Source: Chloroflexi bacterium HGW-Chloroflexi-6
GTDB taxonomy: Bacteria > Chloroflexota > Anaerolineae > Anaerolineales > Villigracilaceae
Assembly (NCBI GenBank): GCA_002840685.1
Contig: PHBU01000002.1
Coordinates: 1-64,000 of the forward strand
Length of the DNA stretch: 64,000 nucleotides
Direction: 5' to 3'
Below the pieces are notes generated by a model, which saw only the letters and a list, made by a program, of their open reading frames with translations, was not told the DNA's origin and searched no databases. The position numbers and the translations under genes are program-made. Shown in pieces: positions 13,061 to 42,396 of this stretch; the first letter of the stretch is position 1; each line of letters starts with the position of its first letter.

Positions 13061-16000
13061 TTAGTGGAACTGTTGCTTGCCCACAATCAATTGTATGTCT
13101 AGCCTGGACAGGAAAATATCGCGCAGTTCTGGTGTATTGGCGTGGTCAGCAATCAACTTCACTTCAGCACATGCCCGCTCTAGCCATTCGGTGGCAGCCG
13201 GCATATTGCCGCTTTCCCCTTCCAACCTTGCGAGAACCGCGCACATTTCCCAGGTCTCGCGGTGCGCGCCTATTTCATCGGATAAAACCAGCGCATCACA
13301 AAGCGTTTGGTACGCATTTTTTGTATCTCCAGCCGCTAATTCTATTTTTGCGCGCAAAAATAATATGCCGGGTTTGAAATGGCGCAACTTCAATTCGTCA
13401 AATTTTCCTAGCAGTTGCTCAACGCAATGGTTGGCGCACTTCAGTTCGCCATTTGCCAGCGCCAACTCTGCTTCCGCCTCCAAAATGGAATGAGTTTCCC
13501 ACCAGCCTTCATAAGTCTGCCAGTGTAGATCAAAATTCTCCCAGCCCTTTTGCACAGCCGTCTGTGCCTCTCCCAAATTCCCGCGGCGTATTTCCACCAA
13601 AGCGAGCATGGCAAAAGCGGGGCCGCGCCCGGTCAGGCTGGTCTGATCTTGATGGCTGATTGCTCTTTGAACGTGGTCGATTGCTGCATCGTAGTCGCCC
13701 AGGTCATAGTAACACCACGCCAGTTGTTGAAAAATATCGATCCATAGCCCAGACAGGAACCGGCGGGATTCATCCGATTTCAGCGCGGGTAGTAATATTT
13801 CGAACACCCGATCATATTCACCGCGCAGGATGTGGATCGCGTTTTGGGTGGTTGCCAGGGCATAGACCGATGTGGGGCTGCCCAGCACTTCGTTTGCCCG
13901 ATATGCTTCACCCAGCAAAGATGTGGCAGCATCGAAGTTCCCAGTCTCCAACTGAATGATTGCCAGGTTATGCAAACAACTTAACACTCTCGGGTGCTGA
14001 CCCAGGTCAAGGAATATCGCCATCGCTTCCGCCAGGGCTGACTCGGCTTGCTCAAGCTGACCGAGCGAGATGAACGCCACGCCAAGTTCCAGCTTGACCA
14101 AAGCCAACTGCTCGCGCCAACCAGTCTTTTTTGCTAATTCTTCAGCGGCGCGAAGATGGGCAATGGCTGGCGCAATTTGTCTGTTGCCGAATTTGTGCGC
14201 CCGTGCCAAACTCAACTCGATTTGTTGTTGTGCTTGCATATCCCCCAGCACTTGCGCCAAGGATAAAGCCTGCCCTGCCAATTCTCGTGCCAGATCTATG
14301 TTTTGTGTGTCGTAAGGCATGGGCAGCAAAACACAGCGTGCTAGAAGAGATGCCAGTTGCATTTCGTGGCTGTCACGCGCCAAAGCCTGTGTTTGCATTT
14401 CATCGTAAATGGTCAGGGCCTGGCGGTGATGAAATTCCAGTTCGTATGCCTTGCCAAGTTGCAGGTAGAGATGTTGGCAGGTTACCGTACTTGCTTCGGC
14501 TTTTGACTCGATCAAGAGCGAGCGGGCGGTTTCATAATGCCCTGTCGCAGTTGTCACTTCATAAAAGCACATGGCTTCATCGCCTGCGTTCAAACTGTGT
14601 TCAAAAGCAAATCGCCATTCCTTCGCAGATAAGGCGTGATATGCCAGTTCTGCCGAGGGGGTTTTAACTTCTGACAGCGCTGTTAAAGCCCGCCGATGAA
14701 AAACTTCGCGGCGCGCTTCGCTAATCTGCTTGTAAACGACTTCCCGTATGCGGTCGTGGGAGATGCTGTAGGGGCGGGTTTCGTTGCGGACTTCCACGAT
14801 CAGACGGGCTGACAACAGCTCATCGAGGGCATCCAGGCTGTTTTGTTCGTCAGTTCCCGAAACCTTGCGTAAAAGATCAAAACTGCAATTGCGTCCGATC
14901 ACGGCGGCAGCGGCCAATACGGCCAAAGTCGGCTGGCTTAGCCATTCGAGACGCGACAGAATCACACTCTGGATGCTGGGTGCTAATAAGCGGGAATCAA
15001 TGGATTTCAAATTATTCAATGTCGCTAGTGGGTCGAGAGTGGGGCTGGATGTTTCTGTGCCCATCCAAACCAACGCACCGTAATCTTCGAGCGAGGAAAG
15101 GATCTCAAGCACAAAAAAAGGCTGACCGTTCGTTTCCATCGTCAGCCAGGCAGAGAGGGCGGCAACGCCCTCCAGGGTTTCACCCACCAGGGATTGGATT
15201 ATCTCCTGAATCGCAGAAGCCTGTACGGGCGGCAGGGAGAGGCGGGTCACTGGGATGTCGCGGATCAAAACACTCATCCAGTCACGGAATCCAGTTGTGC
15301 GCGCAAGCGATTCCTCGCGTATCAGAACCAGAAGCAGGGTCCGGCTGTGACTGGCGCGCCAACTTCGTGAGAGATAGTGGAGCAATTCCAAAGTGCCCGC
15401 ATCAGCCCATTGCAAATCATCCATAACCAGAATCAGCGGTTTTCGCTTAGACAGGGATACGCCGAGGCGGGCAATTGCCTCGAACAACCTCGATCTGGCG
15501 GTTGCTTCGTCACCGATGGCGGCTGGCAGGTCGGGGTAGCGCTCGCGCAGTTCGGGCAGGATGCGGGTGAGTTCGGCTAGCCAGGCATCGTCGAGCAGAT
15601 CTTCCGGGGCGTTCTCGCGCTCCAGTCGATCACGTAAAGCGTCGATAATTGGCTGGTAAGGCAAGCCGCCGCTGGTTTCGTAAACCTGTCCGCGCACAAG
15701 GTCTGCGCCATGCGTACCCGCCCATTTTAGAAATTCTTCCGCCAGGCGTGTCTTTCCCATGCCAGATTCGCCTGATACCACAACAAACTGTGGCTTGCCT
15801 TCCTGCGTGAGGTGGAAGGTTTGTACCAGATTTCGATATTCATTTGAGCGACCTACAAAGGGGATGAAAAGACGGTCGCCCCGCGCCTCAGCCTGATTCT
15901 CCAATATGGATGAAGCAGTTTCGCTGGAGCGGATGTATGCCAGCACTTCTTCGGTTTCGGAGGCTGGCTCAACGCCCAATTCTTTGCCCAACAAAGCGCG

Positions 16001-16672
16001 GCAGGTTTCATAAACCTGCAAAGCGCTTGAACGATCTTGGTTGAGAAAATGCAGGCGCATTAAGCGGCGGTATGCACTTTCGTTCAAATGATCCAATGCC
16101 AACCATTGGTTGACTGTCTCGATGGCGGGGGCAATAAGATGGTTTTCGAGTTGGTGATTTGATAATCGCTCGTGGATCAGGTTAAGGCGCGCCCCAATCA
16201 CATTGCGCTGAATCACAATCCAATCGTTGAAGGCGGGCGTATCAGGCAGGGAAAAGGCTTCAAGAAAAGGTCCGCGGGCGACTGCGACTGCATTTTGCAA
16301 CAGGGTAATGGCAGGCGGCGCAAGCTGGAGCGGCTGGGTATCGGTTGTCGCTTGTGCGGCCAGGTTCAAGTCGAGAAAGGCGAGGCTTGATGCATTGAAT
16401 CGGATGCGGTCGCCTTCAATCTTTAAGAGATCATCCACACCCCATAAAGCCTGCTTGATGCGCCCGAGCGTGCTGCGCAAAGAGAACTGGGCCTGGCGGG
16501 TCCCGCTCTCGGGCCAGAAGATGGCTTGCAGTTTTTCGCGCGGGTGAGTGCCAGATTCAACTACCAGATAGACAAATAGCGCCAACGCCTTGCGGGCAGC
16601 GAATTTAACAGGTTTTCCGTTATAAAAAAACTCGGGAGCACCCAGAAGCCTTATTTCCAAACCGTCCGACAC
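13061..16672 (-). CDS. SARP/BTAD-type large transcriptional activator with AAA ATPase and TPR regions
   Basis: LEIRLLGAPEFFYNGKPVKFAARKALALFVYLVVESGTHPREKLQAIFWPES (SARP winged helix), BTAD region, GESGMGKTRLAEEF (P-loop), ILVMDDLQWAD (Walker B), TPR-like C-terminus. Confidence 0.88.
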   Translation of the reverse strand: MSDGLEIRLLGAPEFFYNGKPVKFAARKALALFVYLVVESGTHPREKLQAIFWPESGTRQAQFSLRSTLGRIKQALWGVDDLLKIEGDRIRFNASSLAFLDLNLAAQATTDTQPLQLAPPAITLLQNAVAVARGPFLEAFSLPDTPAFNDWIVIQRNVIGARLNLIHERLSNHQLENHLIAPAIETVNQWLALDHLNESAYRRLMRLHFLNQDRSSALQVYETCRALLGKELGVEPASETEEVLAYIRSSETASSILENQAEARGDRLFIPFVGRSNEYRNLVQTFHLTQEGKPQFVVVSGESGMGKTRLAEEFLKWAGTHGADLVRGQVYETSGGLPYQPIIDALRDRLERENAPEDLLDDAWLAELTRILPELRERYPDLPAAIGDEATARSRLFEAIARLGVSLSKRKPLILVMDDLQWADAGTLELLHYLSRSWRASHSRTLLLVLIREESLARTTGFRDWMSVLIRDIPVTRLSLPPVQASAIQEIIQSLVGETLEGVAALSAWLTMETNGQPFFVLEILSSLEDYGALVWMGTETSSPTLDPLATLNNLKSIDSRLLAPSIQSVILSRLEWLSQPTLAVLAAAAVIGRNCSFDLLRKVSGTDEQNSLDALDELLSARLIVEVRNETRPYSISHDRIREVVYKQISEARREVFHRRALTALSEVKTPSAELAYHALSAKEWRFAFEHSLNAGDEAMCFYEVTTATGHYETARSLLIESKAEASTVTCQHLYLQLGKAYELEFHHRQALTIYDEMQTQALARDSHEMQLASLLARCVLLPMPYDTQNIDLARELAGQALSLAQVLGDMQAQQQIELSLARAHKFGNRQIAPAIAHLRAAEELAKKTGWREQLALVKLELGVAFISLGQLEQAESALAEAMAIFLDLGQHPRVLSCLHNLAIIQLETGNFDAATSLLGEAYRANEVLGSPTSVYALATTQNAIHILRGEYDRVFEILLPALKSDESRRFLSGLWIDIFQQLAWCYYDLGDYDAAIDHVQRAISHQDQTSLTGRGPAFAMLALVEIRRGNLGEAQTAVQKGWENFDLHWQTYEGWWETHSILEAEAELALANGELKCANHCVEQLLGKFDELKLRHFKPGILFLRAKIELAAGDTKNAYQTLCDALVLSDEIGAHRETWEMCAVLARLEGESGNMPAATEWLERACAEVKLIADHANTPELRDIFLSRLDIQLIVGKQQFH

Positions 16673-19685: not shown

Positions 19686-20018
19686 TTAATTTTCTTTCTT
19701 TTTCTTCCATTTAAGAGTTATTTCATAATTTACTTCACCCCCAACCTTACCAACAGCAAAGATTCCCGCCTCCCCAATCGCCTTTAAACCAAATTTAATT
19801 TCCGCTTCATCGACATGCAAATCTTCAAACTCTCGCAAAACAGCTTTTGCAGCTGATTTAACACCTGAAAAAGATTGGATAAATTTTTCTTTTGCATCTC
19901 TTATAGTAATCTCGTTTTGCTGCTCCACCCCGAAGTTATCAGTTTCTTTTTTATCTGTGGAAGATATCTCAACTAAAACATTACCTTCTTCAAGTTCATA
20001 TTTTATGAAGTTGCCCAT
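19686..20018 (-). CDS. Trypsin-co-occurring domain 1 (Trypco1 / CU044_2847-like) protein
   Basis: MGNFIKYELEEGNVLVEISS...AKEKFIQSFSGVKSAAKAVLREFEDLHVDEAEIKFGLKAIGEAGIFAVGKVGGEVNYEITLKWKKKKEN; FGLK..GEAG..AVGKVGGE.NYEITL.W pattern. Confidence 0.75.
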   Translation of the reverse strand: MGNFIKYELEEGNVLVEISSTDKKETDNFGVEQQNEITIRDAKEKFIQSFSGVKSAAKAVLREFEDLHVDEAEIKFGLKAIGEAGIFAVGKVGGEVNYEITLKWKKKKEN

Positions 20019-20199: not shown

Positions 20200-20990
20200 A
20201 TGATGAGCAGAAAAGCCTATCCCAGTGATGTAACAGATGAAGAATTGGCCTTTGTCGCGCCCTATTTGATGTTGATGAGAGAAGATGCCCCGCAACGCGA
20301 TTATGAATTGCGAGAAGTCTTCAACGGGGTGCGGTATGTTGTCCGCACTGGATATCCGTGGCGTTCCTTGCCACACGTTTTGCCACCTTGGGTGGCAGTC
20401 TACCAACAATCACAGCGTTGGATTGCACCAAGGTGTTTGAAGCCATCGTTCACGATTTGCGAGCCCTGCTTCGCTTGGCGAAAGGCAAGCAAGAGCAACC
20501 CACCGCAGCGATTTTTGATGGCCGCACGATGCAGTCCACGCCCGAAAGCGGAGAACGTGCCGGATACGACGGGCACAAAAAGCGAAAAGGTAGCAAAATC
20601 CATCTGGCAGTAGACACATTAGGGTATCTTTTGGCTTTGCATGTTACACCAGCCAATGAGCAAGAGCGTGTCCAAGTCCAGATATTGGCTGAAAAAGTTC
20701 AGGAAGTGACCGGGAATTCAGTTGAAATTGCCTATGTCGATCAAGGCTATACCGGTGAAAATGCTGAACAAGCCGCAAAGCAGGCTGGTATTGAGTTGAT
20801 GGTGGTCAAACTACCAGAAGCAAAGAAAGGTTTCGTTCTCCTACCGAGACGATGGGTTGTTGAACGTAGTTTTGCTTGGACGGCTCGATTTCGTAGATTG
20901 GCGCGAGATTTCATGCGAGGCGCACACCTGTTTGGAGCACAAAGACATACTCTGTCTCCCAAAAGCCATCTGGGTCGCGTGGGGCGGTGA
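20200..20990 (+). pseudogene. IS5-family (DDE) transposase, frameshifted and C-terminally disrupted
   Basis: Frame 1: KAYPSDVTDEELAFVAPYL...[41 protein letters not shown]. Frame 2: [65 protein letters not shown]...[19 protein letters not shown]. Frame change near 20420; atypical C-terminus. Confidence 0.85.
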
Positions 20991-21494
20991 AGAATCACCA
21001 GAGCCTAAATACTTGTGGCGTTATCTGCATTGTTATCCAGTTGAGTATTGGTATTGTTTTGTCATGCAAAGTTTGTATTGGGCTTTGCGCATACTTAGCT
21101 CACTAGTACAGGGCGAGTGTTAGAGCGACCTGATACGGCTTATCACTTAGAATTTTGGGCGGGCACATCCAATTGGCGTTGATACATCATGCCTAGTAGA
21201 AAAACAAACGGAATTGACACCTGGAAGAGTTTGCCAAGGAATGGACGATAGTTGTGTTCGGAGTGGTACACCAACCAAGCGCCAAAAACGTGCAAAAATG
21301 CTCTTGGATGAAAAAAGGGAAAGGATGCCAAAGAATGAGTCTAGTACGCTTTGATATCGTCAAAAAAGATAAACAGGCTATCTCTGCGACTTGAAATTGG
21401 ATTATTTAGGGTCCGTTCACGCCATCGGCTAATACTAGATAGGTTCACCTAGTGTAAACTCAAAAATTTAAATATCATCTTGAACAGGCAGTTC

Positions 21495-24061: not shown

Positions 24062-24589
24062 ATGATGCAACAGTATTCTTTGCCACAAGATTTCAAGATT
24101 TTGATACGAGAAAAGAAGCTTGAAATAATTCGAGGGGTGCTGAATTTAAGCAATGACCAAATTGATAAATATATAAAAAAAGAAAAACATCATCGATTTT
24201 CGCTAGTGGTTGCCTTTCAGAATAAAAAATTTCTAATGTTACGCAATAATTACAGAGATTTAGGCTGGGAATTGCCAGGTGGGTCGGTTGATAACGGAGA
24301 AACCTACGAAGAAGCAGCTCGTCGAGAATTACTTGAAGAGGCTGGATTTTTCACCGCGAAAGTCTTTCCTATTTGCGCAATTCTAGCGCAGGTAAATTCC
24401 CCTAAAAAAACATTATATAGCTTTGGAATAGCTTTTGCGACATTGTCTTTTGTAGATACAGGAAAAACTGAACTTCAGACCAAAGAAAAAGAATTTTTTC
24501 TTATCCAACCTGATAAAACAATGTTCGTAAATCATAAAGTGATCAATATAGCGATAAAAAAAATAATAGATTTATCATGTTTGCAATAG
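24062..24589 (+). CDS. NUDIX hydrolase
   Basis: LPGGSVDNGETYEEAARRELLEEAGF matches the Nudix box GX5EX7REUXEEXGU. Confidence 0.9.
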   Translation: MMQQYSLPQDFKILIREKKLEIIRGVLNLSNDQIDKYIKKEKHHRFSLVVAFQNKKFLMLRNNYRDLGWELPGGSVDNGETYEEAARRELLEEAGFFTAKVFPICAILAQVNSPKKTLYSFGIAFATLSFVDTGKTELQTKEKEFFLIQPDKTMFVNHKVINIAIKKIIDLSCLQ

Positions 24590-24602
24590 AATCTCAACGC
24601 CC

Positions 24603-25823
24603 ATGAAACTATTATTCGATATCAAAGAAGTAAAAGAATACATAGAATCTATTAATCAAAAGTTACATATTTTCAAGCAAGATTTTTATATTGAAGAGAT
24701 TTTGGGAGGATTTATAAATAAAATTTATCTTATAAAAGATCAAAATGGTTCTATTATCCTGAAACAGACTTGGCCTTATTTTTACACTAGTGGGCCATCA
24801 TGGCCATTGAGTTTAGCAAGATTTTCGGTAGAAGTTACTTGTTTATTGAAATTCAATGATATAGCTCCTGGTTTTTCTCCAAGAGTCATTTATCGAGATT
24901 ATTCAAACAAAATAATACTGATGGAATATTTACTCAACTATAAGAGCATAGACAATTTTATAGATAATTACTTTACTATACCTCAATTGGCTGAGCAGTT
25001 AGCTTATTTTTTGGCTCATATAACCTTCCATACATCAGATTTTTCCATAAGCAGTACATCCAAAAAGGTTCTAGCAAAGAAACTAATTAATCCATCCATA
25101 GTTAGTATCTCTGAAAATTTAGTTTTTTCAGACCCATTTATTAGGAACGAAAAACCCCTATCTAAATCTTATTTGGATGATGAAAGAAATGCCATACTAT
25201 GTGATCCCGAAATAAAATATGAACTTGCTATATTGAAGAATAGATTTATTAATTACCCTCAATCTCTTTTACATGGGGACTTGCATCAAGGCAGTATTTT
25301 ATCTAATGGCACCAATATTAAGATCATTGATCCTGAATTCGGTTTTTTAGGCCCGATAGGATATGACTTAGGTTTAGTTCTATCAACGCTAATCACATCT
25401 TTTGTAAGTTTGAGTGAAGAAAGCCCAAACACTCCCAGCATGAAAGTGTATTTTAGAAATACCATTAAGGATTTTTGGTTCAACTACAAAAAGATTTTTC
25501 TCGAACTGTGGGAGAAGGATACAACGGGCCATATGTTTAATCAAGCCTATTGGGATTTTGAAGGCGGTAATGAAAAGTTTACATGCTACAAAAATGATTA
25601 CATGATACAAATACTACAAGATTCTTGCGGTTATGCCGGAAGCAGAATACTGGCAGGTACTATTGGTAGTATCACCTTTCCCTGCATCGAAAAAATATCA
25701 GGCAGTAATAATAAAAAAAATGTCGAAATAAGAGCAATAAATATTGGTAAAAAACTTGTTTTGAAAAGAAAAAATATCAATGAAGTTAGCACAATCTTGG
25801 ATTTGATTACTGAAACGGATTAA
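24603..25823 (+). CDS. Methylthioribose-kinase-like (MtnK/APH-fold) phosphotransferase
   Basis: SLLHGDLHQGSILSNGTNIKIIDPEFGFLGPIGYDLGLVLSTLI (Brenner HGDLH, DPEF) and C-terminal CGYAGSRILAGTIGSITFPCIEKISGSNNKKNVEIRAINIGKKLVLKR, as in MtnK. Confidence 0.75.
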   Translation: MKLLFDIKEVKEYIESINQKLHIFKQDFYIEEILGGFINKIYLIKDQNGSIILKQTWPYFYTSGPSWPLSLARFSVEVTCLLKFNDIAPGFSPRVIYRDYSNKIILMEYLLNYKSIDNFIDNYFTIPQLAEQLAYFLAHITFHTSDFSISSTSKKVLAKKLINPSIVSISENLVFSDPFIRNEKPLSKSYLDDERNAILCDPEIKYELAILKNRFINYPQSLLHGDLHQGSILSNGTNIKIIDPEFGFLGPIGYDLGLVLSTLITSFVSLSEESPNTPSMKVYFRNTIKDFWFNYKKIFLELWEKDTTGHMFNQAYWDFEGGNEKFTCYKNDYMIQILQDSCGYAGSRILAGTIGSITFPCIEKISGSNNKKNVEIRAINIGKKLVLKRKNINEVSTILDLITETD

Positions 25824-25830
25824 ATTAGCC

Positions 25831-26295
25831 ATGAAGTCTTTTTTCTTAGTTCTCGCGAACTCATTAAGAAATACATTTTGGAAAATTATTGGGGCAAAAA
25901 CTGTTGGCGTAAGAATAATTGCAGTAAATAACTACGATGAAGTGTTGTTAGTAAAACACACATATAAGCCAGGATGGCATCTTCCCGGAGGAGGCATTAA
26001 GCGCAATGAAACACTTTTTGAGGCTGCAATCCGAGAGCTTTACGAGGAAACAGGTACAAAGATAACTAACATAAAATTCCTGGGGATATATAATGATTTC
26101 TCTGAAGGCAGAAATGATCACATAGTTTTGTTTACAGGAAGTGTTATTACAACTGTAACTGTAAACAGCTTCGAAATTGAGGATCTAAAGTTTTTTTCTA
26201 GAGATGAATTCCCCAAAGATTTAGATATGCATTGCAAAAATAAAATATATCAATTTCTGGATTGTGAGCCTAGTGCTCATATTGGAAAATGGTAA
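25831..26295 (+). CDS. NUDIX hydrolase
   Basis: HLPGGGIKRNETLFEAAIRELYEETGT: Nudix box. Confidence 0.88.
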   Translation: MKSFFLVLANSLRNTFWKIIGAKTVGVRIIAVNNYDEVLLVKHTYKPGWHLPGGGIKRNETLFEAAIRELYEETGTKITNIKFLGIYNDFSEGRNDHIVLFTGSVITTVTVNSFEIEDLKFFSRDEFPKDLDMHCKNKIYQFLDCEPSAHIGKW

Positions 26296-33413: not shown

Positions 33414-34466
33414 TTATGGAGATTGCAAGACCAGATAATATAAACAGGTCTGGTAACTATTTTCATCTTGCAAGGTCATAAGCCCTGGTTGTTGAGAACT
33501 AACAGCGCCTTTAATAGTGTGCTCTCCTGCAGGCAAAGTAATAAGGCGTTGTCCATTCAGATTGAACCATTCATTGTTTGTCGTGCTAAAAGACTGAACA
33601 GTACTAATATTATCGACGATCAAATGAAAAGATGCCTCTTTATTAAGTGTTCCTGTAGTCTGAAAATTTGCCAGTCCCACGCTCCAGACCAAAACTTGGC
33701 TGGTTTTTTCCAATGTAAAGGTTGTAGAAAGGGTTGGCACAGGTAAAGTGGCATAACCTCCTGACAACGATACAGCTTGCTGGCTTTGCAAGCACACATT
33801 ACCGTTTGGCAGGTTTATCTTTTCAGGTGAAACGCTTCCATCAGGAGGAACAAAACTAATATCAGCCCCAAGTTTGACTCGCGTTACAGATTCATTTGCA
33901 AGTTTTTCAGTTGTAATTGCAAGATTTTCCAACTTTACAGTGCTAATACTGCCATCCGGCACAGTCAAAGCCTGCACAGCAAACGGCACACTGCCCAACT
34001 GGATGCGCGGAGTCATTTCGTTATCCGTCCCAGCCGTGATTCCCAACCACAGGCTGCCATTGCTGCTGACCAGGCTTTGCGGGATAGAATTCAGGCTGCC
34101 GAGCATAACATTGAACAAGCCATCGCTAACCTGCACGCTGTTAGGGCCAGTCCAGTTTTCTTCCCACAAGGGCACACCGTCCGTTGCGGCGCTATACAGC
34201 CGAAAAACCATCGGAACGGTATTGGTAATTGGCGTTCCGGCGCTATCGGCCAGGCGTCCCTGGTAGGGCCAGGTTCCGGTGGATGTGGTTGCGCTGGCTG
34301 GCTGCTGCCAGGGCAACGCATTTGCCGACTGCGCCCAAAACAGCGTAAGAATCACCACAAAGGTGAAGATTGCGTTGCCACGTGAGGGCAACCAGGTGCG
34401 CCAGTCCACTTGTGACAAGCTTTTGAGTAATGAAAAACGGGGTTTCGTAACGGGTTGTGATTCCAT
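33414..34466 (-). CDS. Secreted protein of unknown function, tail-fibre-like repeats
   Basis: N-terminal TM/signal NAIFTFVVILTLFWAQSANA, WPYQGRLADSAGTPITNTVPMVFRLYSAATDGVPLWEENW..., VPDGSISTVKLENLAITTEKLANESVTRVKL. Confidence 0.6.
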   Translation of the reverse strand: MESQPVTKPRFSLLKSLSQVDWRTWLPSRGNAIFTFVVILTLFWAQSANALPWQQPASATTSTGTWPYQGRLADSAGTPITNTVPMVFRLYSAATDGVPLWEENWTGPNSVQVSDGLFNVMLGSLNSIPQSLVSSNGSLWLGITAGTDNEMTPRIQLGSVPFAVQALTVPDGSISTVKLENLAITTEKLANESVTRVKLGADISFVPPDGSVSPEKINLPNGNVCLQSQQAVSLSGGYATLPVPTLSTTFTLEKTSQVLVWSVGLANFQTTGTLNKEASFHLIVDNISTVQSFSTTNNEWFNLNGQRLITLPAGEHTIKGAVSSQQPGLMTLQDENSYQTCLYYLVLQSP

Positions 34467-34706
34467 AATATAGCCTCCTGTTGTATGGAAAAAATATTTC
34501 TTTTTAATGGCGGTATTCGCACGCAGTCAATTCCCCCATTCAATTTCAACCGATAAAAACTCATACCCAACTAGATTGCCCAAAAACATGAGTAATCGAA
34601 AACGCTATATTTTTATACTATGCGATATCATCCCAATCATAGTGATAAATGTCATAATTACCCGTCACTTTTCAAAAATGCAAGCGGATGTTGAAGAAAA
34701 CATCAA

Positions 34707-34748
34707 AAGAGTGATCAGGTTGCTTGTCACAGCAGCCTGATCACTCTT
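34707..34748. terminator. Hairpin terminator, 13-bp perfect stem
   Basis: AAGAGTGATCAGG ... CCTGATCACTCTT. Confidence 0.6.
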
Positions 34749-34767
34749 GAGTCTTTGCGCAAGGCGC

Positions 34768-34845
34768 TATGGTAACTCAAACGTCTTGACGATAAATACC
34801 GCCATCTGGGCATGTGTCACTGGATTCTCAGGGCGATATTTTGCG
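34768..34845 (-). pseudogene. SLH-motif C-terminal remnant
   Basis: Reverse strand reads KYRPENPVTHAQMAVFIVKTFELP*, matching the C-terminus of the 26938-33207 protein (CPENSVTRAQMAVFIVKTFGLP*). Confidence 0.7.
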
Positions 34846-34974
34846 ATTGCTCACCTGTTGGTTTTTGGTCAAGGGATGCAATTCGGATTTCTTGGCCGGT
34901 ATTTGGCTATTGGGGCGCTAATCCAGAACGCGGATGTAATGGAAATCTGCCAGCGTGAAAATGTGCGCAGCCAG

Positions 34975-35385
34975 CTACTTTGTTTCGGTAGAGCGATTGT
35001 CCCGCTCCCAGCGCTGGATGGCCTGATTTAGCCAGGCGATGCGGTTGCCTTGTGGGTTTTTCTGACGCTCGAACTCAATCAGGCGTTCGGCAGCAGAGCG
35101 GTTGCCACCAACTTTGCTGAGCAGATTGTTGAACAACTCGGCCTGGTTGATGGCCGCGCCGAACAACTCATCTGCCGGGTGAGGCTTGTTGGTCAGTCTT
35201 CGAATTAACGCGCTGAACCAGTTCTCCTGTCGCGCAGGGGAGTGTGATGGCTGCCGATCAGCCTCCGGCTCATAAATATTGACACCGCAATTCGGGCAGC
35301 GGGCTAGTTCATAATAGAAATTTGCGCCACAACGACCACATTCGATTTCGTTTTCGGCGGGTTGGGGGTCAAGACTGGTGGGCAT
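34975..35385 (-). CDS. Zinc-ribbon hypothetical protein, copy 2
   Basis: MPTSLDPQPAENEIECGRCGANFYYELARCPNCGVNIYEPEADRQPSHSPARQENWFSALIRRL...; near-identical to 12392-12805 including upstream DNA. Confidence 0.75.
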   Translation of the reverse strand: MPTSLDPQPAENEIECGRCGANFYYELARCPNCGVNIYEPEADRQPSHSPARQENWFSALIRRLTNKPHPADELFGAAINQAELFNNLLSKVGGNRSAAERLIEFERQKNPQGNRIAWLNQAIQRWERDNRSTETK

Positions 35386-35769
35386 GGGGCATTCGCTTTC
35401 TCTTGGGAATTGAACGAATTCAAATCCCTACACATTATTACCACTATACAACATTTCAACTGTATTTTTGCGTTACATTTGTCTATACTCGCGGGGAAAA
35501 ATGTTCTGACTTCGGTGCTCAAAAGGGCAACTTGTTAATGAAGATTTTCTGTATTTCCGAAAAGTCGAATTATCTCCAAAAGATAACCCACAATCCCCCG
35601 CAAATCAATTGGTCTTGCGCGGGAAGATTGTGCAGAAGTCATCGATTTTGATGTGATTTTCTATGCAATTAGCGGGGAAAAACGATTACACTTAATAGGT
35701 CTGCATATTATTTGACGGGTTGGGCGAACATTCAGATAATGTAATCTTGGTGCTTATTTTGGGTAGGTT

Positions 35770-38700
35770 ATGGATATCAAAACCAGCGTTGTCGCAATTC
35801 TGAATGACAAAAACAAAATCATGGGCACCGGCTTTGTGGCTGGCGAGAATTTGATTCTGACCTGCGCCCATGTGGTTGAGCAAGCTACGGCGGGATTGAA
35901 CGAGCGAGTGACCATCCGTTTTTCAGACAATTCAAAAACTGAAGCGACCGTTGAGCAATCATCCTTCAGCCCCAGTTACGAAAAGGATGTGGCACTCTTG
36001 CGCGTGATCTCGCTGCCACAGGGTATTCCGTTTCTTCCGCTGGGAAACGCCGCCGGCAGCGCGGGACATGATTTTTATGCCTACGGCTATGCCATTGTTG
36101 CGGATGTGCAAGGGATTGGTGCGCGCGGCAAAATCGTGGATATTGTGGATAATGGCCGCCTGGTACAGTTGACTTCGCAGGAACCCGATCACGGCATGAG
36201 CGGTGGACCGGTATTGGATGAACAACGCCAGGTGGTTGTAGGAATGATTAGTAAGGGAAAAGGTGTCATCGATAGTGATCAGAGTGTTCGCAATCTTCAA
36301 ACCACCTTTGCCATATCAATGGATTCAATCGCCAATACATGTACCGTGCTGAAATTGTTGCCGAGTGAGGGGTCAACAAATACTCAGCTTGAGTCTAATC
36401 AAGTTATTGCAGTTCCGGGCTATCCGCCCCATTATTTGCTCAGGGAGGCGGAACTACAAACGTTAGCCCGAATGTTAGTTTCTTTACCGGGGCCAAATTC
36501 TATCAATTCAAAACGCAAGATCACTGTCTTGCAGGGCATGGGTGGAACAGGCAAATCCGTTCTAGCCTCTGCCTTGGCCCAAGAACCAATGGTGCGGCAG
36601 TCTTTCCCAGATGGGGTTATTTGGCTGACTATCGGTAAATCTCCAGTGCTAGCCCAGTTGTTCGAACAGACAGGGGTTTTCCTCGGGAACAGCTCTTTAC
36701 AATATTCCAATATGGTGCTCGCCAAACAAAATTTGGGTAAGTTAGCTTCTTCCAAGGCCTGTCTTGTGATTTTGGATGATGCTTGGGATGCCTATTATGG
36801 AAATCTTTTTAGCGACATCTTTGTTGATCCTCGCGCTAGAATTTTGATTACAACGCGTGATAGCCGAATCGCATCGCTGTTAGATGCTCAAGAATACAAA
36901 CTTGATATGCTCACTGAGCAACAGTGTATTGATTTGCTGTTCAATTGGACAGGGAAGCATGATAAAGGCTATGCCACAATTGCTAAAAATTTGGGATATC
37001 TGCCTCTTGCCATCAAGCTTGCTGGAGCCAGGCTTTCTTTTGGTTTGACTGTATCCGAATGGTTACTGAAATTTCAAAATATCTCTGCGATAAAAACTGG
37101 TCGAAAGGCAATAGATCGGGACGACAGCCTGGAGACCAGTATAGAATTAAGTGTGGATGCCATATTTGGTTCAGGTGATGATCCGGGAGAAAAACTGCTC
37201 TATTACACTTTTGGCATCTTCAAAGATGATGTACGCATCCCCCAATGTGTTGTTGTTCAACTCTGGATGCAGATTAAACCTGGTATTGATGAATTTAAAT
37301 GCGAAGAGATTATTAATGATCTGGTGAGCCTGGCATTGGTTGAGAGAAATTCTACAGATCGAACCATTACTTTGCATGATCTCTTGCATGGATATAACCG
37401 TGAGAAACTTGGTGATCGGTTAAAGCAAACCCACCAAGATTTATTGCAGTCATACAATCCGAAAGATATTGCCTGGCATTTAATAGAAAATGATGAGTAC
37501 ATTTACTTCAACCTGTCCTATCACATGCTTGGAGCAGGGCGCGAAGCGCAACTATTTGATGTTTTGCTAGAAGCCCCTATCTGGTTAAACCGTTATCCAG
37601 CTGACAAACTGCGCGATGTTGAAGTTTTGCTAATTAGTATTTGGGACCTGTACAATGCCAAGTATCCGGTTCCCGCTGAGAAATTTCTTTTGAGATGGTT
37701 AAATCAACATCCCAAAAGGCGAAAAGATGCTCTTGTGAATTCCAAATTGGTTGCGGTCAAATGCGCCTACAAATCTGAAAATATTAGGATTTTGGCACAC
37801 AGCCTATGCCACAGAGATGCCATTGTGCAAGACGAGTCTGTTCGATATTTATTCTACTTGAGTCATGTGCATCCTGATTACTGTTGGCAGATCGTGGATG
37901 CGGCCAGCCAAAGTATTGTCCGTTTTGGATTACCGAATTTCCATATCGTTCGGGTGTTATTCCCTGTGGTTATGTTATTGCTAATTCAACAATATCGACA
38001 TTCACCCAGCGACCTGAATACCAATTTATTAGAAAGATACAAAGTTCTTCTAAGTTCAATGCTCAAAAAGGTGTTGTTCATAAACACCATGAGTAAATTC
38101 CTCTTTGGAGGAATTGCTAAATTCATTCGCACTATGCTTGTAAAGGCACTTAAACAATATGTTCGGCGCTTGCTTAGCCACAATCTCGATGCTATCAATG
38201 TAGATCCGCAGAAGCTCCGGATTACCACCAATTCGATTGAGGAGTTTTCGCGCTTCTTTGCTCTACCAGAAGGGGATAAGCAATTATTGCGTAGATTTAT
38301 CCCTTACCTAAACCGTAACTATGGTTCTTTATTAGATCTTAAAAATGAATCGATTGAGATTCACTGTCGAGGCGATATTCTCAGCATTGCATTGGTTAAT
38401 TTTGTTGGGATGGGACGAGCGTATGCAAATCCTGATCAAATATTTGAGTTTTATAGCTCTACGTTTCAGGGGGTACTTTCCTCCCAAGCGAATCAGTACA
38501 ATCGGATTGCGCGAGTTGCAGAAAGCATTTCACATGCCATGTATTCTGTTCTTGACCGGCAGAAACATATAAAGGATGAGTGGCTTTCATTCTCGAAAGA
38601 GTTAATCCAACAGCATATCGACAATACAGCGAAGGCATTTCAATATGGTGTTACATCAACCTCGATTGGCAAATATATCTACTATACTCCGATGTATTAT

Positions 38701-39222
38701 GGCGCCATCTGGAATCGTGTACATCCCAATGATCCCATTGATTTGATCGAAGAACTTCTATTTCGCGCTACCAAGCAGAATGATAGAGCCTTGTTGCTTT
38801 ATGTAATTGCAAGTCTTGGGGAACGAGCAACAAATCCTTCTAACTATGGCAGTATTCTCACCAGCTTAAAACCTTATCTAGATACAGCCGATGTTGAACT
38901 GCGGGATATTATGATCATGTCACTCGCGACTATTCGAAATAAGAATGCGGAGCAAGTTGATAATTTCCTAGAAATCAATAAAATGCGTCATCTTGGCGAG
39001 GTAGTTAAGCAGCGAAGTTATGATGAAAATATCACCGAATTGGCTCGCCGGTTTCACGAGTTCATCGTTGATTTCATGGCAGACGCCGATGATGAGATGA
39101 TGGAACAGGTGGTCAGTGTAACTCAAAAGGCCTTAGATATGTCATCTGTTGATGATGCTCTTGAAATAGCGATCAAGGAAATTATTAATCGGATGATCGC
39201 ACAGAACGCATTTTACGATTGA
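35770..39222 (+). CDS. Trypsin-like serine protease - NB-ARC STAND (APAF1-like) - HEAT/helical-repeat fusion
   Basis: Triad GTGFVAGENLILTCAHVV / YEKDVALL / DHGMSGGPVLD; P-loop QGMGGTGKSVLA; Walker B CLVILDDAWD; RILITTRD; GYLPLAIKLAGA; NLSYHMLGAGREAQLFDVLLE (APAF1-helical-like). Confidence 0.85.
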   Translation: MDIKTSVVAILNDKNKIMGTGFVAGENLILTCAHVVEQATAGLNERVTIRFSDNSKTEATVEQSSFSPSYEKDVALLRVISLPQGIPFLPLGNAAGSAGHDFYAYGYAIVADVQGIGARGKIVDIVDNGRLVQLTSQEPDHGMSGGPVLDEQRQVVVGMISKGKGVIDSDQSVRNLQTTFAISMDSIANTCTVLKLLPSEGSTNTQLESNQVIAVPGYPPHYLLREAELQTLARMLVSLPGPNSINSKRKITVLQGMGGTGKSVLASALAQEPMVRQSFPDGVIWLTIGKSPVLAQLFEQTGVFLGNSSLQYSNMVLAKQNLGKLASSKACLVILDDAWDAYYGNLFSDIFVDPRARILITTRDSRIASLLDAQEYKLDMLTEQQCIDLLFNWTGKHDKGYATIAKNLGYLPLAIKLAGARLSFGLTVSEWLLKFQNISAIKTGRKAIDRDDSLETSIELSVDAIFGSGDDPGEKLLYYTFGIFKDDVRIPQCVVVQLWMQIKPGIDEFKCEEIINDLVSLALVERNSTDRTITLHDLLHGYNREKLGDRLKQTHQDLLQSYNPKDIAWHLIENDEYIYFNLSYHMLGAGREAQLFDVLLEAPIWLNRYPADKLRDVEVLLISIWDLYNAKYPVPAEKFLLRWLNQHPKRRKDALVNSKLVAVKCAYKSENIRILAHSLCHRDAIVQDESVRYLFYLSHVHPDYCWQIVDAASQSIVRFGLPNFHIVRVLFPVVMLLLIQQYRHSPSDLNTNLLERYKVLLSSMLKKVLFINTMSKFLFGGIAKFIRTMLVKALKQYVRRLLSHNLDAINVDPQKLRITTNSIEEFSRFFALPEGDKQLLRRFIPYLNRNYGSLLDLKNESIEIHCRGDILSIALVNFVGMGRAYANPDQIFEFYSSTFQGVLSSQANQYNRIARVAESISHAMYSVLDRQKHIKDEWLSFSKELIQQHIDNTAKAFQYGVTSTSIGKYIYYTPMYYGAIWNRVHPNDPIDLIEELLFRATKQNDRALLLYVIASLGERATNPSNYGSILTSLKPYLDTADVELRDIMIMSLATIRNKNAEQVDNFLEINKMRHLGEVVKQRSYDENITELARRFHEFIVDFMADADDEMMEQVVSVTQKALDMSSVDDALEIAIKEIINRMIAQNAFYD

Positions 39223-39229
39223 GGATTCC

Positions 39230-39934
39230 ATGACCGACACTTATCTAAAACCGTATGCTTTGATCGATGATTCGTTCATCGAATGGCAGAAAAACTTCAA
39301 ATTTTTTCGCTTTGTGGCACGGAACCATAATTCTGCTTGGGGCGAGGGCTTTTTCAGCCGGATACTTTACAACCCTGAACTGGAAGAATATTGTGTGCAG
39401 GTGGTCAGCTATTATCGTTATCAGTTGATCCCTTTTCACATCAACGATTATCACCCGTTTTTTATCTACTATGATAAAAAAATTCAACCACTGCGTTTAA
39501 TTTATGATCCCGGACACCATAATTCGAACGTGGCAAAGATTGAAGCACAAACCCAAAATTTGACGATTATTTATCCTTGGCATCCTTTTGAATTAGGCAA
39601 AAAAAAGTTTTCGTTACCTCTTGTGCCAGTGTATCGATCATTGCACAATGATGTGCTTCTGCGTTGGTGGTTACAGCCTGGAATGCCTCAGTTCAAATTG
39701 CGTTCAAAACTTGTGGATCCCTGGCATCTAGGCCTGTTATCAAACTCTAAAATGGAGGCAGGCTCGTTTCGCGATGAAATTACTTGCCCTGTCTGTGGAA
39801 AAATCCATTTGTTCGATCGAATGGATTTTGATGGAAAAAGATTTTCGTCAACTTTTCCCTGCTGCAAAAACACAATCATTACCGCAATCTATGATCCAGA
39901 AAACATGCGCATGAGCATGGAAATTAATTCGTGA
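39230..39934 (+). CDS. Hypothetical protein with C-terminal zinc-ribbon-like motif, STAND-linked
   Basis: ITCPVCGKIHLFDRMDFDGKRFSSTFPCCKN; 8 nt after the STAND gene on the same strand. Confidence 0.6.
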   Translation: MTDTYLKPYALIDDSFIEWQKNFKFFRFVARNHNSAWGEGFFSRILYNPELEEYCVQVVSYYRYQLIPFHINDYHPFFIYYDKKIQPLRLIYDPGHHNSNVAKIEAQTQNLTIIYPWHPFELGKKKFSLPLVPVYRSLHNDVLLRWWLQPGMPQFKLRSKLVDPWHLGLLSNSKMEAGSFRDEITCPVCGKIHLFDRMDFDGKRFSSTFPCCKNTIITAIYDPENMRMSMEINS

Positions 39935-40671
39935 AAACAAAGCTATCGTTATTGCCGATATTGTTTTTGGTCTTGATAATTCCAACAGCCATTGCAGCTA
40001 TAACGGAAATCTTTAAGTCAGTGTTGATTTGGCATTTCCGGATTGTAGATTTTTTTGATCTGGTTGTTACAGCTCCCCTTTATTTTGTGTGTTTTGTGAC
40101 GATTTACTTTTTATGGGTGCAAAACACGATATCATCACCGATCAAATGGTTGTACATATTTTGTGTTGCGCTGTTTTTATATGGTCATTCCATGCACGTG
40201 ACGGCTAATGCAATTGATACATACAGTATGGAAATTCAGGGTTATCAAGATCGAATCCCACAAGATGTTTATGAATTGGTGTATTTCCTTGATGAAACCC
40301 TGTCTCATATCCTCACATTTTTTGGCCTTTATGGCTTCTTGTTATGTTTTCTATGGATTGATGGGACAACTCCAGATAATGGGGACACAAGCAACTTTGG
40401 CGCATTGCCGTTGGGAATAATTTACGGTATTGGGCAAGGTATTGCTTTAGTAGAAGCAGGGAAAGTCTGGGTTGCTGGCTTGTTCTTTATTAGTTCCGTA
40501 ATTGTTTTTTTGTTGGTAAGTATTCGTACCCATTTGGGGTTTGGCCAGCTTTTACGGAAATCGGTGGTTGTCGTACTTTTTTCTGGGATTGTGCCAGGCC
40601 AATTGTTAAGCTTGCTTGTGTATTGGTTAATATTTGGAGATTTCATCCAGCCTTCTAAACTGGGTCTTTAG
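39931..40671 (+). CDS. Multi-TM membrane protein, STAND-linked
   Basis: About 6-7 hydrophobic segments; GTG start overlaps the preceding stop codon. Confidence 0.6.
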   Translation: MKTKLSLLPILFLVLIIPTAIAAITEIFKSVLIWHFRIVDFFDLVVTAPLYFVCFVTIYFLWVQNTISSPIKWLYIFCVALFLYGHSMHVTANAIDTYSMEIQGYQDRIPQDVYELVYFLDETLSHILTFFGLYGFLLCFLWIDGTTPDNGDTSNFGALPLGIIYGIGQGIALVEAGKVWVAGLFFISSVIVFLLVSIRTHLGFGQLLRKSVVVVLFSGIVPGQLLSLLVYWLIFGDFIQPSKLGL

Positions 40672-40720
40672 TGCGATCCATAAAAAGCGAAATTGCCAGG
40701 TTGATAAAATAATTACAGCT

Positions 40721-41245
40721 ATGCCCTCAACTCCCGAATCTCTAGCTCGTGAAAACATTGACGCCCAGTTGGCCGCATGCGGCTGGATTGTGCAGGACCG
40801 CGCCCGGATGAATATGTATGCGGGGCGGGGAATTGCTGTACGCGAGTTCCCGTTGCAAACGGGGTTTGCTGATTACCTGCTGTTCGTGGATAGGAAAGCC
40901 GTCGGCGTGATCGAGGCCAAGGCGGAAGGGGTCACGCTTTCGGGGGTGGCGGAGCAGGCGGGGCAGTATTCGATCGGGTTGCCTGCGAATATTCCGCATG
41001 TGACGCTGCCGCTGCCGTTTTTGTATGAATCCACCGGGGTGGAAACGTACTTTCGGGATGAGCGTGACCCGCAGCCGTGGTCACGGCGAGTATTTACGTT
41101 CCACAGGCCGGAGACGCTGGCCGACTGGCTCGAAACGGAATCTGGCGCGGGTACGGGGAGAACGTTCCGGGCGAGATTGCAGCAGTACCCCCTGTTGAAC
41201 ACAATTGGGTTGTGGGATGCGCAGATCGAAGCGATTAACCATCGC
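40721..41245 (+). pseudogene. hsdR: Type I restriction HsdR N-terminal fragment (truncated)
   Basis: STPESLARENIDAQLAACGWIVQDRARMNMYAGRGIAVREFPLQTGFADYLLFVDRKAVGVIEAKAEGVTLSGVAEQAGQY...LWDAQIEAIN, then sequence breaks; helicase domain absent. Confidence 0.75.
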
Positions 41246-42174
41246 GATTCAGCTCTTTGAAAAAAACGGGCATGAATTTTTTGACCGTATTCATGCTGAT
41301 CTTACCCTGCATGGCCAGCACCGCGGGAACGCCAATTTCTGCCAGGCGCGGGCCAAGCGCGGCCATTGAGCCTGCGTTTTCTTTCCCGGCGCTTTCACAG
41401 GAGGCCAGCACAATCAGGCGCGGAAGACGGCTGGCTTCCAGCTCGGCAAGCTGGCTGACGAAATCTTCGGCTTTGATGCGGGCCATTTTGCCGTTTTCAT
41501 CTTCGAGAAACAAGATCGGCCCACTCTCAGCCAGCACACCATGACAGGCCAAATACAGCACATCCGCGCCATCGCGCAGCACACTAAAAATATTTTCGAG
41601 CGTGGCGCGCCGGAATTCCCCAAGGTTAGCACGGGGATTTCACCCAACGCTTCCCTGGCCCGTGTAATTTCAGCTTCCACATCCACCGGAGGCAAGCTTT
41701 TTAATAAATCCGATGGGTTTGCCGCCACGGCCAACGCTTTCAACCCACCCCTGGGCCGCAGTACCACCGGGCGGCGATCCTGGCTGGCTGGGTAGCGTGA
41801 GAGCCAGGTATTTTCGGATAGGGTCAGGGGGGTATCGTTCTGCGGGTCGCGTAATTTTTCCCAGGAAATGGCGTGCAAATCGGCCACATCGGGAGAAGTC
41901 TTCACCTGGATGCGCAACGGCGTCCCGGCTGCGACCGCCATCCATTCCCCCAGGGTGGCGCGCAGTTTCTCCGGGCCAAAACCTGGCCGGTGAGAGTCTT
42001 CCCGTAGGCTTCGGGGTCAAATTCGTCCAGCGCACCGGGGTCAATCCGCACTTCCTGTGCATCAATTTCGCGCGGGGCATCCTCTCCGGCTTTGAGAAAT
42101 CTCATCCCCAGGGTGTATTGATTGCCCGACCGGGAAAAACTCAGCACAAGTTCTGAAAATTTTTCTTCTTCCAT
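41235..42174 (-). pseudogene. CHAT-domain (caspase-like) protease, broken into three frames
   Basis: Fragments 41902-42174, 41414-41941 and 41235-41582 join into one protein with ADVLYLACHGVLAESGPILFLEDENG (His) and LPRLIVLASCESAGKENAGSMAALGPRLAEIGVPAVLAMQGKIS (Cys). Confidence 0.75.
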
Positions 42175-42396
42175 ACGGCCTCACTGGATAACAATAAATT
42201 CTTTCCCGTTCACCACAAACCGGATTGGATATCCATCCGTAGGCATCGAGGGAAGAAGCGATATTACAAATATACCCCGCACGAGTAAGAATTATAGTAT
42301 GGCAGAAAAATGAACCACCCACGAGCCAGTGATTTCTTTTATTGCAGAATTCTCCGCGCGATGTTTTTAGCCTTTATTTTTTAAAGTGAGGATAAA

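Follow-up and report, generated by a model that had tools for sequence, protein, structure and literature searches.

Does a trypsin-bearing STAND protein work alone as a protease switch, or is it one part of a dedicated system together with the two small genes that follow it? The question is raised by a locus of Chloroflexi bacterium HGW-Chloroflexi-6, which lies within the window analyzed here (64,000 nucleotides; contig PHBU01000002.1, positions 1 to 64,000, forward strand; all coordinates below refer to it). The first gene of the locus, at 35770, encodes a protein of 1150 residues, and the two that follow encode a 234-residue protein and a 246-residue membrane protein; the three open reading frames are located exactly as originally predicted. 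We place the probability at about 0.6 that the 1150-residue protein is a stand-alone NLR-like sensor-executor, in which a trigger would drive a protease switch and the two small genes are additions.

Domain organization of the 1150-residue protein

The protein combines a protease, an NTPase and an APAF1-like core in one chain (Table 1). The trypsin domain begins at residue 1 and matches Trypsin_2 with an E value of 5.5e-20, above the Pfam cut-off; its His34, Asp73 and Ser144 are invariant across nine aligned trypsin domains, and judged by these triad residues the domain is catalytically complete. The NB-ARC domain (E=1.5e-21) also scores above its Pfam cut-off and contains a Walker A motif, GMGGTGKS, at residue 256, which the original prediction had pointed out, in addition to a Walker B sequence (CLVILDD, in the motif at 330), an ITTRDS sensor (in the motif at 358) and a GLPL-like motif at 410. 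All of these motifs, together with the catalytic triad and the MHD-like LHD, are intact.

The NB-ARC domain is succeeded by a winged helix and then by the start of a helical domain, which is the order of the APAF-1 core. The closest solved structure is human APAF-1 (residues 252-598, E=3e-18 by phmmer), and APAF1_C is also detected in a 1712-residue relative (L051, E=2e-4). The APAF1-like assignment of the original prediction is thus borne out by phmmer, with the Pfam winged-helix and APAF1_C matches under their cut-offs. The HEAT repeats that had been proposed for the C-terminal part are not: no Pfam HEAT model matches the protein at E<=1, and no internal repeat is detected (best self-alignment score 43, compared with a mean of 36 and a maximum of 57 for shuffled sequences). 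HEAT repeats occur instead in a homologue from Longilinea, described below.

One protease module on different STAND bodies

The trypsin domains at 35770 and 21495 of the window are 50-51% identical over approximately 190 residues (E about 1e-53), and both carry VQGIGARGKI and DHGMSGxPVxD, in agreement with the homology that had been noticed earlier. When an alignment of three trypsin domains was searched against 85,462 species genomes, two closer relatives of the 35770 domain emerged. The nearest, 74% identical, belongs to a 749-residue trypsin-NACHT-HEAT protein of Longilinea arvoryzae, and the other, 61% identical, to a 1363-residue protein of an Anaerolineae metagenome-assembled genome in which trypsin is joined to nSTAND1 and 14 WD40 repeats. 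The domain encoded by the gene at 21480, which is 51% identical, sits on an NB-ARC-TPR body, and a third match, with a 40% identical trypsin, has the architecture EAD7-trypsin-nSTAND1. Because such closely related trypsin domains (51-74% identical) occur on four different STAND/sensor bodies, the view of the protease as a portable effector module is well supported by these alignments, and the modular protease with interchangeable sensors that the original prediction had proposed holds up. This is a clear example of a single protease being exchanged between four NTPase/sensor bodies, and it is by such exchanges that NLR-type immunity diversifies.

In the tree, the four close trypsin domains group with a paralogue from contig C28 with a support of 94/94, the fork being marked as open and the C28 branch being long. 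This third paralogue of the same genome (L057:6956-9886, minus strand) is a 976-residue protein that keeps the catalytic residues and has approximately 800 residues without a Pfam match. Other combinations in which this protease family occurs are EAD7-trypsin-nSTAND1 (L071:9722-11284) and trypsin-nSTAND1-FGE-sulfatase (L052:7786-10428). The sequence immediately following the trypsin-NACHT-HEAT gene of Longilinea arvoryzae is duplicated around a run of N (L069:12250-14240), and the assembly may be wrong there.

The 1712-residue relative mentioned above (genome G483) aligns with residues 2-601 of the 35770 protein at 31% identity (E=7e-60) and has a different C-terminus. A shared core with differing C-termini is, as read from these alignments, the usual NLR pattern of a constant effector and switch with a variable sensor, though the sensor of the 35770 protein has no recognized fold. 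Across the protease clade, the DHGMSG active-site loop and a GMISKGK-like strand are retained, and for this reason the substrate preference has probably been kept as well.

This mobility of the protease also bears on whether the protein is instead an AfsR/SARP-type regulator of transcription or development, with an incidental protease domain and no role in defence. Such a regulator would account for the alignment of part of the NB-ARC domain to AfsR, but that match is far poorer than the one to APAF-1 (1e-6 versus 3e-18). The window does encode a BTAD-AAA-TPR regulator (13061-16672); in the 1150-residue protein, however, no DNA-binding domain was found, and its protease is swapped among sensor bodies of conflict type, the EAD7 fusion included. 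We consider a regulator of this kind very unlikely.

Table 1. Positions in the window of the three genes and of the domains of the 1150-residue protein.
Feature	Position	Strand	Remarks
1150-residue trypsin - NB-ARC - APAF1-like winged-helix domain - helical C-terminal protein (STAND/NLR-like)	35770..39222	+	
Trypsin-like protease domain, residues 1-200	35770..36369	+	Catalytic His34, Asp73, Ser144
NB-ARC NTPase, residues 248-463	36511..37158	+	
APAF-1-like winged-helix domain, residues 476-538, MHD-like LHD	37195..37383	+	E=0.002, under cut-off
Start of APAF-1 helical domain, residues 551-600	37420..37569	+	APAF1_C E=0.055, weak
C-terminal putative sensor, residues 601-1150	37570..39219	+	No family match
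234-residue protein, C-terminal zinc ribbon (C186, C189, C211, C212)	39230..39934	+	
246-residue seven-helix membrane protein, unnamed family	39931..40671	+	

The two downstream genes

From its layout, the region 35770-40671 is one operon: the 234-residue gene starts 7 bp after the stop of the first gene, the start of the 246-residue gene overlaps the preceding stop by 4 bp, and no terminator-like site was found on the coding strand between the three genes in a scan whose sites were, overall, no more numerous than in shuffled sequence. A promoter-like site lies upstream of the first gene (35712-35740), and such sites are no commoner than chance.

The 234-residue protein ends in CPVC...CC, which is zinc-ribbon-like as predicted, and its N-terminal part is beta-rich in a low-confidence single-sequence model (pLDDT, the predicted local distance difference test score, of 39). 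No relatives were found in 399 Chloroflexota genomes, in plasmids or, with a query joint with the 246-residue protein, in a 396-genome sample of the class. There is no match in Pfam, NCBIfam or PADLOC, and the PHROG and PDB matches do not exceed noise. Two weak matches were discarded: one among the 399 genomes (L008), in which the frame resembles a DNA methyltransferase and the similarity was attributed to chance, and a viral one (L026) that shares only a bare CPxC zinc-ribbon motif.

The 246-residue protein, a multi-transmembrane protein as predicted, belongs to a sparse and unnamed family, with five relatives of approximately 240 residues in the class sample and a sixth from a later search. 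G85, H89, A92-N93, D121-E122, S125-H126 and E175 are invariant in the family, distant members included, and the position of these conserved polar residues in predicted helices suggests a membrane enzyme rather than a pore. A single-sequence model consists of seven long helices at low confidence (pLDDT 54), and a viral fold search with it returned nothing. CLN6-like matches in three of six family members (best E=0.009) are below the cut-off and serve as a lead only. Weak matches to open frames of approximately 1000 residues (L073-L075) scored below the genuine relatives and were set aside.

The proximity of a multi-transmembrane protein to a protease recalls the bacterial CARD-NLR systems, which employ protease-activated gasdermins (PMC13236601), and by this analogy the membrane protein might be a pore activated by proteolysis. 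Its seven predicted helices, in which Gly, His, Asn, Asp-Glu, Ser-His and Glu do not vary among distant homologues, look like those of a membrane enzyme instead, no pore-former, gasdermin or SLATT family matches the protein, and homologues adjoin methyltransferase-like, phosphotransferase-like and FAD-monooxygenase-like genes, which together make a gasdermin-like system extremely improbable.

A true three-gene system is less easily dismissed. In such a system, the trypsin domain would cleave the 234-residue protein or the membrane protein, the membrane enzyme would harm the envelope or make a toxic product, and the zinc-ribbon protein would serve as a gate or adaptor. The close spacing and the lack of terminator-like sites described above are in keeping with it, and there is precedent for operons that pair a protease with a dedicated pro-enzyme (Hachiman HamM, Avs1, canu; PMC12799240). 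Additionally, in genome G482 (L093:1541-5718, minus strand), a relative of the membrane protein overlaps, by the same 4 bp, the end of a gene encoding a caspase (Peptidase_C14, E=4e-37) with TPR, so that at two unrelated loci the family follows a protease of conflict type. The other five family loci, however, have unrelated neighbors: ankyrin-repeat, methyltransferase-like, phosphotransferase-like, PEP-synthase-like and FAD-monooxygenase-like genes, the last four types being read from the sequence and not scanned. The 234-residue gene, as noted, has no relative in the genomes searched, no relative of either small gene adjoins the other trypsin-STANDs examined, and none rises above noise in the genomes of Longilinea and L070, which contain the closest proteases. 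We therefore regard the small genes as not being conserved partners of the protease, and a three-gene system as possible but unlikely.

The original prediction had described the small genes as two dedicated accessory genes, and their conservation with the STAND gene was not found in the Chloroflexota genomes. The result for the three-gene neighborhood goes against that prediction, although the test is a weak one, as no full-length orthologue of the 1150-residue protein was found. The suggestion that the membrane protein is the target or executor of the protease fares no better, with the protein absent beside the 74% identical Longilinea protease, its family mostly beside unrelated genes and its residues enzyme-like. 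Both co-transcribed genes are probably additions particular to this locus, and a locus-specific role for them is still conceivable because of the same lack of a full-length orthologue.

More doubtful still is a specific version in which an apoptosome-like protease response is executed by a seven-helix membrane enzyme that is dedicated to it and for which the zinc-ribbon protein is the gate, the family having been independently recruited behind the caspase-TPR protease. If this were true, the family would constitute a new class of membrane effector under proteolytic control, and a membrane protein acting as executor of the protease would give a bacterial cell-death switch a new mode of action. 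The most promising lead is the coupling of the family to a caspase-TPR gene in genome G482.

Genomic context and Trypco1

Beginning 49 bp past the third gene is what is left of a type I restriction R subunit, its truncated N-terminal part (40721-41260, plus strand; HSDR_N E=4e-6), and a CHAT protease gene broken into several frames follows at 41235-42322 on the minus strand (PF12770, E=2e-18 on one piece). With these truncated and broken defence genes on its flank, the locus looks like a worn defence island.

Kaur et al. 2020 (PMC7159879) described the association of Trypco1 genes with trypsin-STANDs in predicted conflict systems, and in the phylum these genes adjoin more distant trypsin-STANDs at five loci. 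The sole Trypco1 above the cut-off in the present genome is at 19686-20018 of the window (minus strand; PF19493, 62.7 bits), divergent from the trypsin-NB-ARC-TPR gene at 21480, with a DDE transposase between them (20200-20990). In genome G224, which belongs to the same family as the present genome, a Trypco1 is divergent from a trypsin-nSTAND1 gene with no transposase between. Because of this same divergent pairing, the Trypco1 of the window probably belongs to the 21480 gene, from which a transposase insertion would have separated it. Behind the 21480 gene, at 24062-26295 (plus strand), a different accessory set is present, namely a tight run of NUDIX, APH-like kinase and NUDIX genes of low GC content (about 31-34%).

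Proposed mechanism

Taken as a stand-alone switch, the 1150-residue protein probably represents a known kind of suicide switch, one that senses phages. The domains, their intact motifs, the module swaps and the operon layout are seen in the sequences; the trigger, oligomerization, proteolysis and cell death, as well as the role of both small genes, are inferred. The C-terminal helical part would keep the APAF1-like NB-ARC core closed until a trigger, most likely a phage protein, binds; nucleotide exchange in the NB-ARC domain would follow and lead to an apoptosome-like oligomer. The oligomer may gather the N-terminal trypsin domains and activate them by proximity, and the ensuing limited proteolysis would cause growth arrest or death of the infected cell. 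The protease more likely acts on a cellular protein, or on one common to these systems, than on the neighboring membrane protein, because the same protease module sits on other STAND/sensor bodies in relatives. The zinc-ribbon protein and the seven-helix membrane protein, probably an enzyme, may tune or localize the response.

Several points weigh against this proposal. The winged-helix and APAF1_C matches both lie under the Pfam cut-offs (Table 1). The approximately 550 residues from 601 to 1150 match no family and no known sensor fold, and no homologue of them is present in the 399 Chloroflexota genomes. Neither a Trypco1 nor a pro-nuclease gene adjoins the 35770 gene. The defence genes around it survive as fragments, which may mean that the locus is in decay. 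An alternative role for the protein could be that of an NB-ARC-type regulator, similar to AfsR-like proteins.

Comparison with known systems

The 35770 protein resembles the trypsin-effector conflict systems (PMC7159879) in its N-terminal catalytic trypsin on a STAND NTPase, and relatives in the phylum have Trypco1 neighbors or EAD7. It differs from them in lacking Trypco1 or an EAD at the locus, in its APAF1-like NB-ARC core and in two small genes of other families; a Trypco1/2 neighbor is frequent, not universal, in trypsin-bearing conflict systems.

In Hachiman and AVAST systems, trypsin domains cleave and thereby activate a partner nuclease (PMC12799240). The nuclease-protease pairs of this type (Avs1, Hachiman HamMA, Lamassu, DRT; PMC12799240) are alike in carrying trypsin as an N-terminal fusion on a defence protein, and the trypsin regions of PADLOC RT-Protease and LmuA match the 35770 protein (E=2e-14 and 4e-12). 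Avs1b does not match it and matches only the N-terminal part of the 21480 protein. Unlike in the Avs1-type pairs, no MBL-fold nuclease gene lies beside the 35770 gene, and no MBL hydrolase is present among the genes flanking it on both sides, from 33414 to 42322 (read, and mostly scanned with Pfam).

The CARD-NLR systems (LypABC, PMC13236601, and the Lysobacter gasdermin system cited there) likewise join a trypsin-like peptidase to an ATPase domain. Cell lysis in these systems depends on proteolysis, which is likewise the proposed mode of action of the 35770 protein; in LypA (CARD-trypsin-ATPase), lysis requires both the catalytic Ser of the trypsin domain and the ATP pocket (PMC13236601). In contrast to these systems, the 35770 locus has no CARD ahead of the trypsin domain, no separate NLR gene and no gasdermin family match, and a single chain holds its protease, NTPase and sensor. 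Because neither a pro-nuclease nor a CARD or gasdermin is present, the locus belongs to neither the nuclease-pair nor the CARD/gasdermin systems, but the working principle may be the same.

With the human APAF-1 apoptosome, the NB-ARC domain, the winged helix and the start of the helical domain align by sequence. The 35770 protein has no WD40 propeller and has a trypsin domain where APAF-1 has its caspase-recruiting CARD, so that the APAF1-like core here carries its protease built in rather than recruited. Trypsin-effector STAND/NLR-like systems are already known, and the 35770 protein adds another to them.

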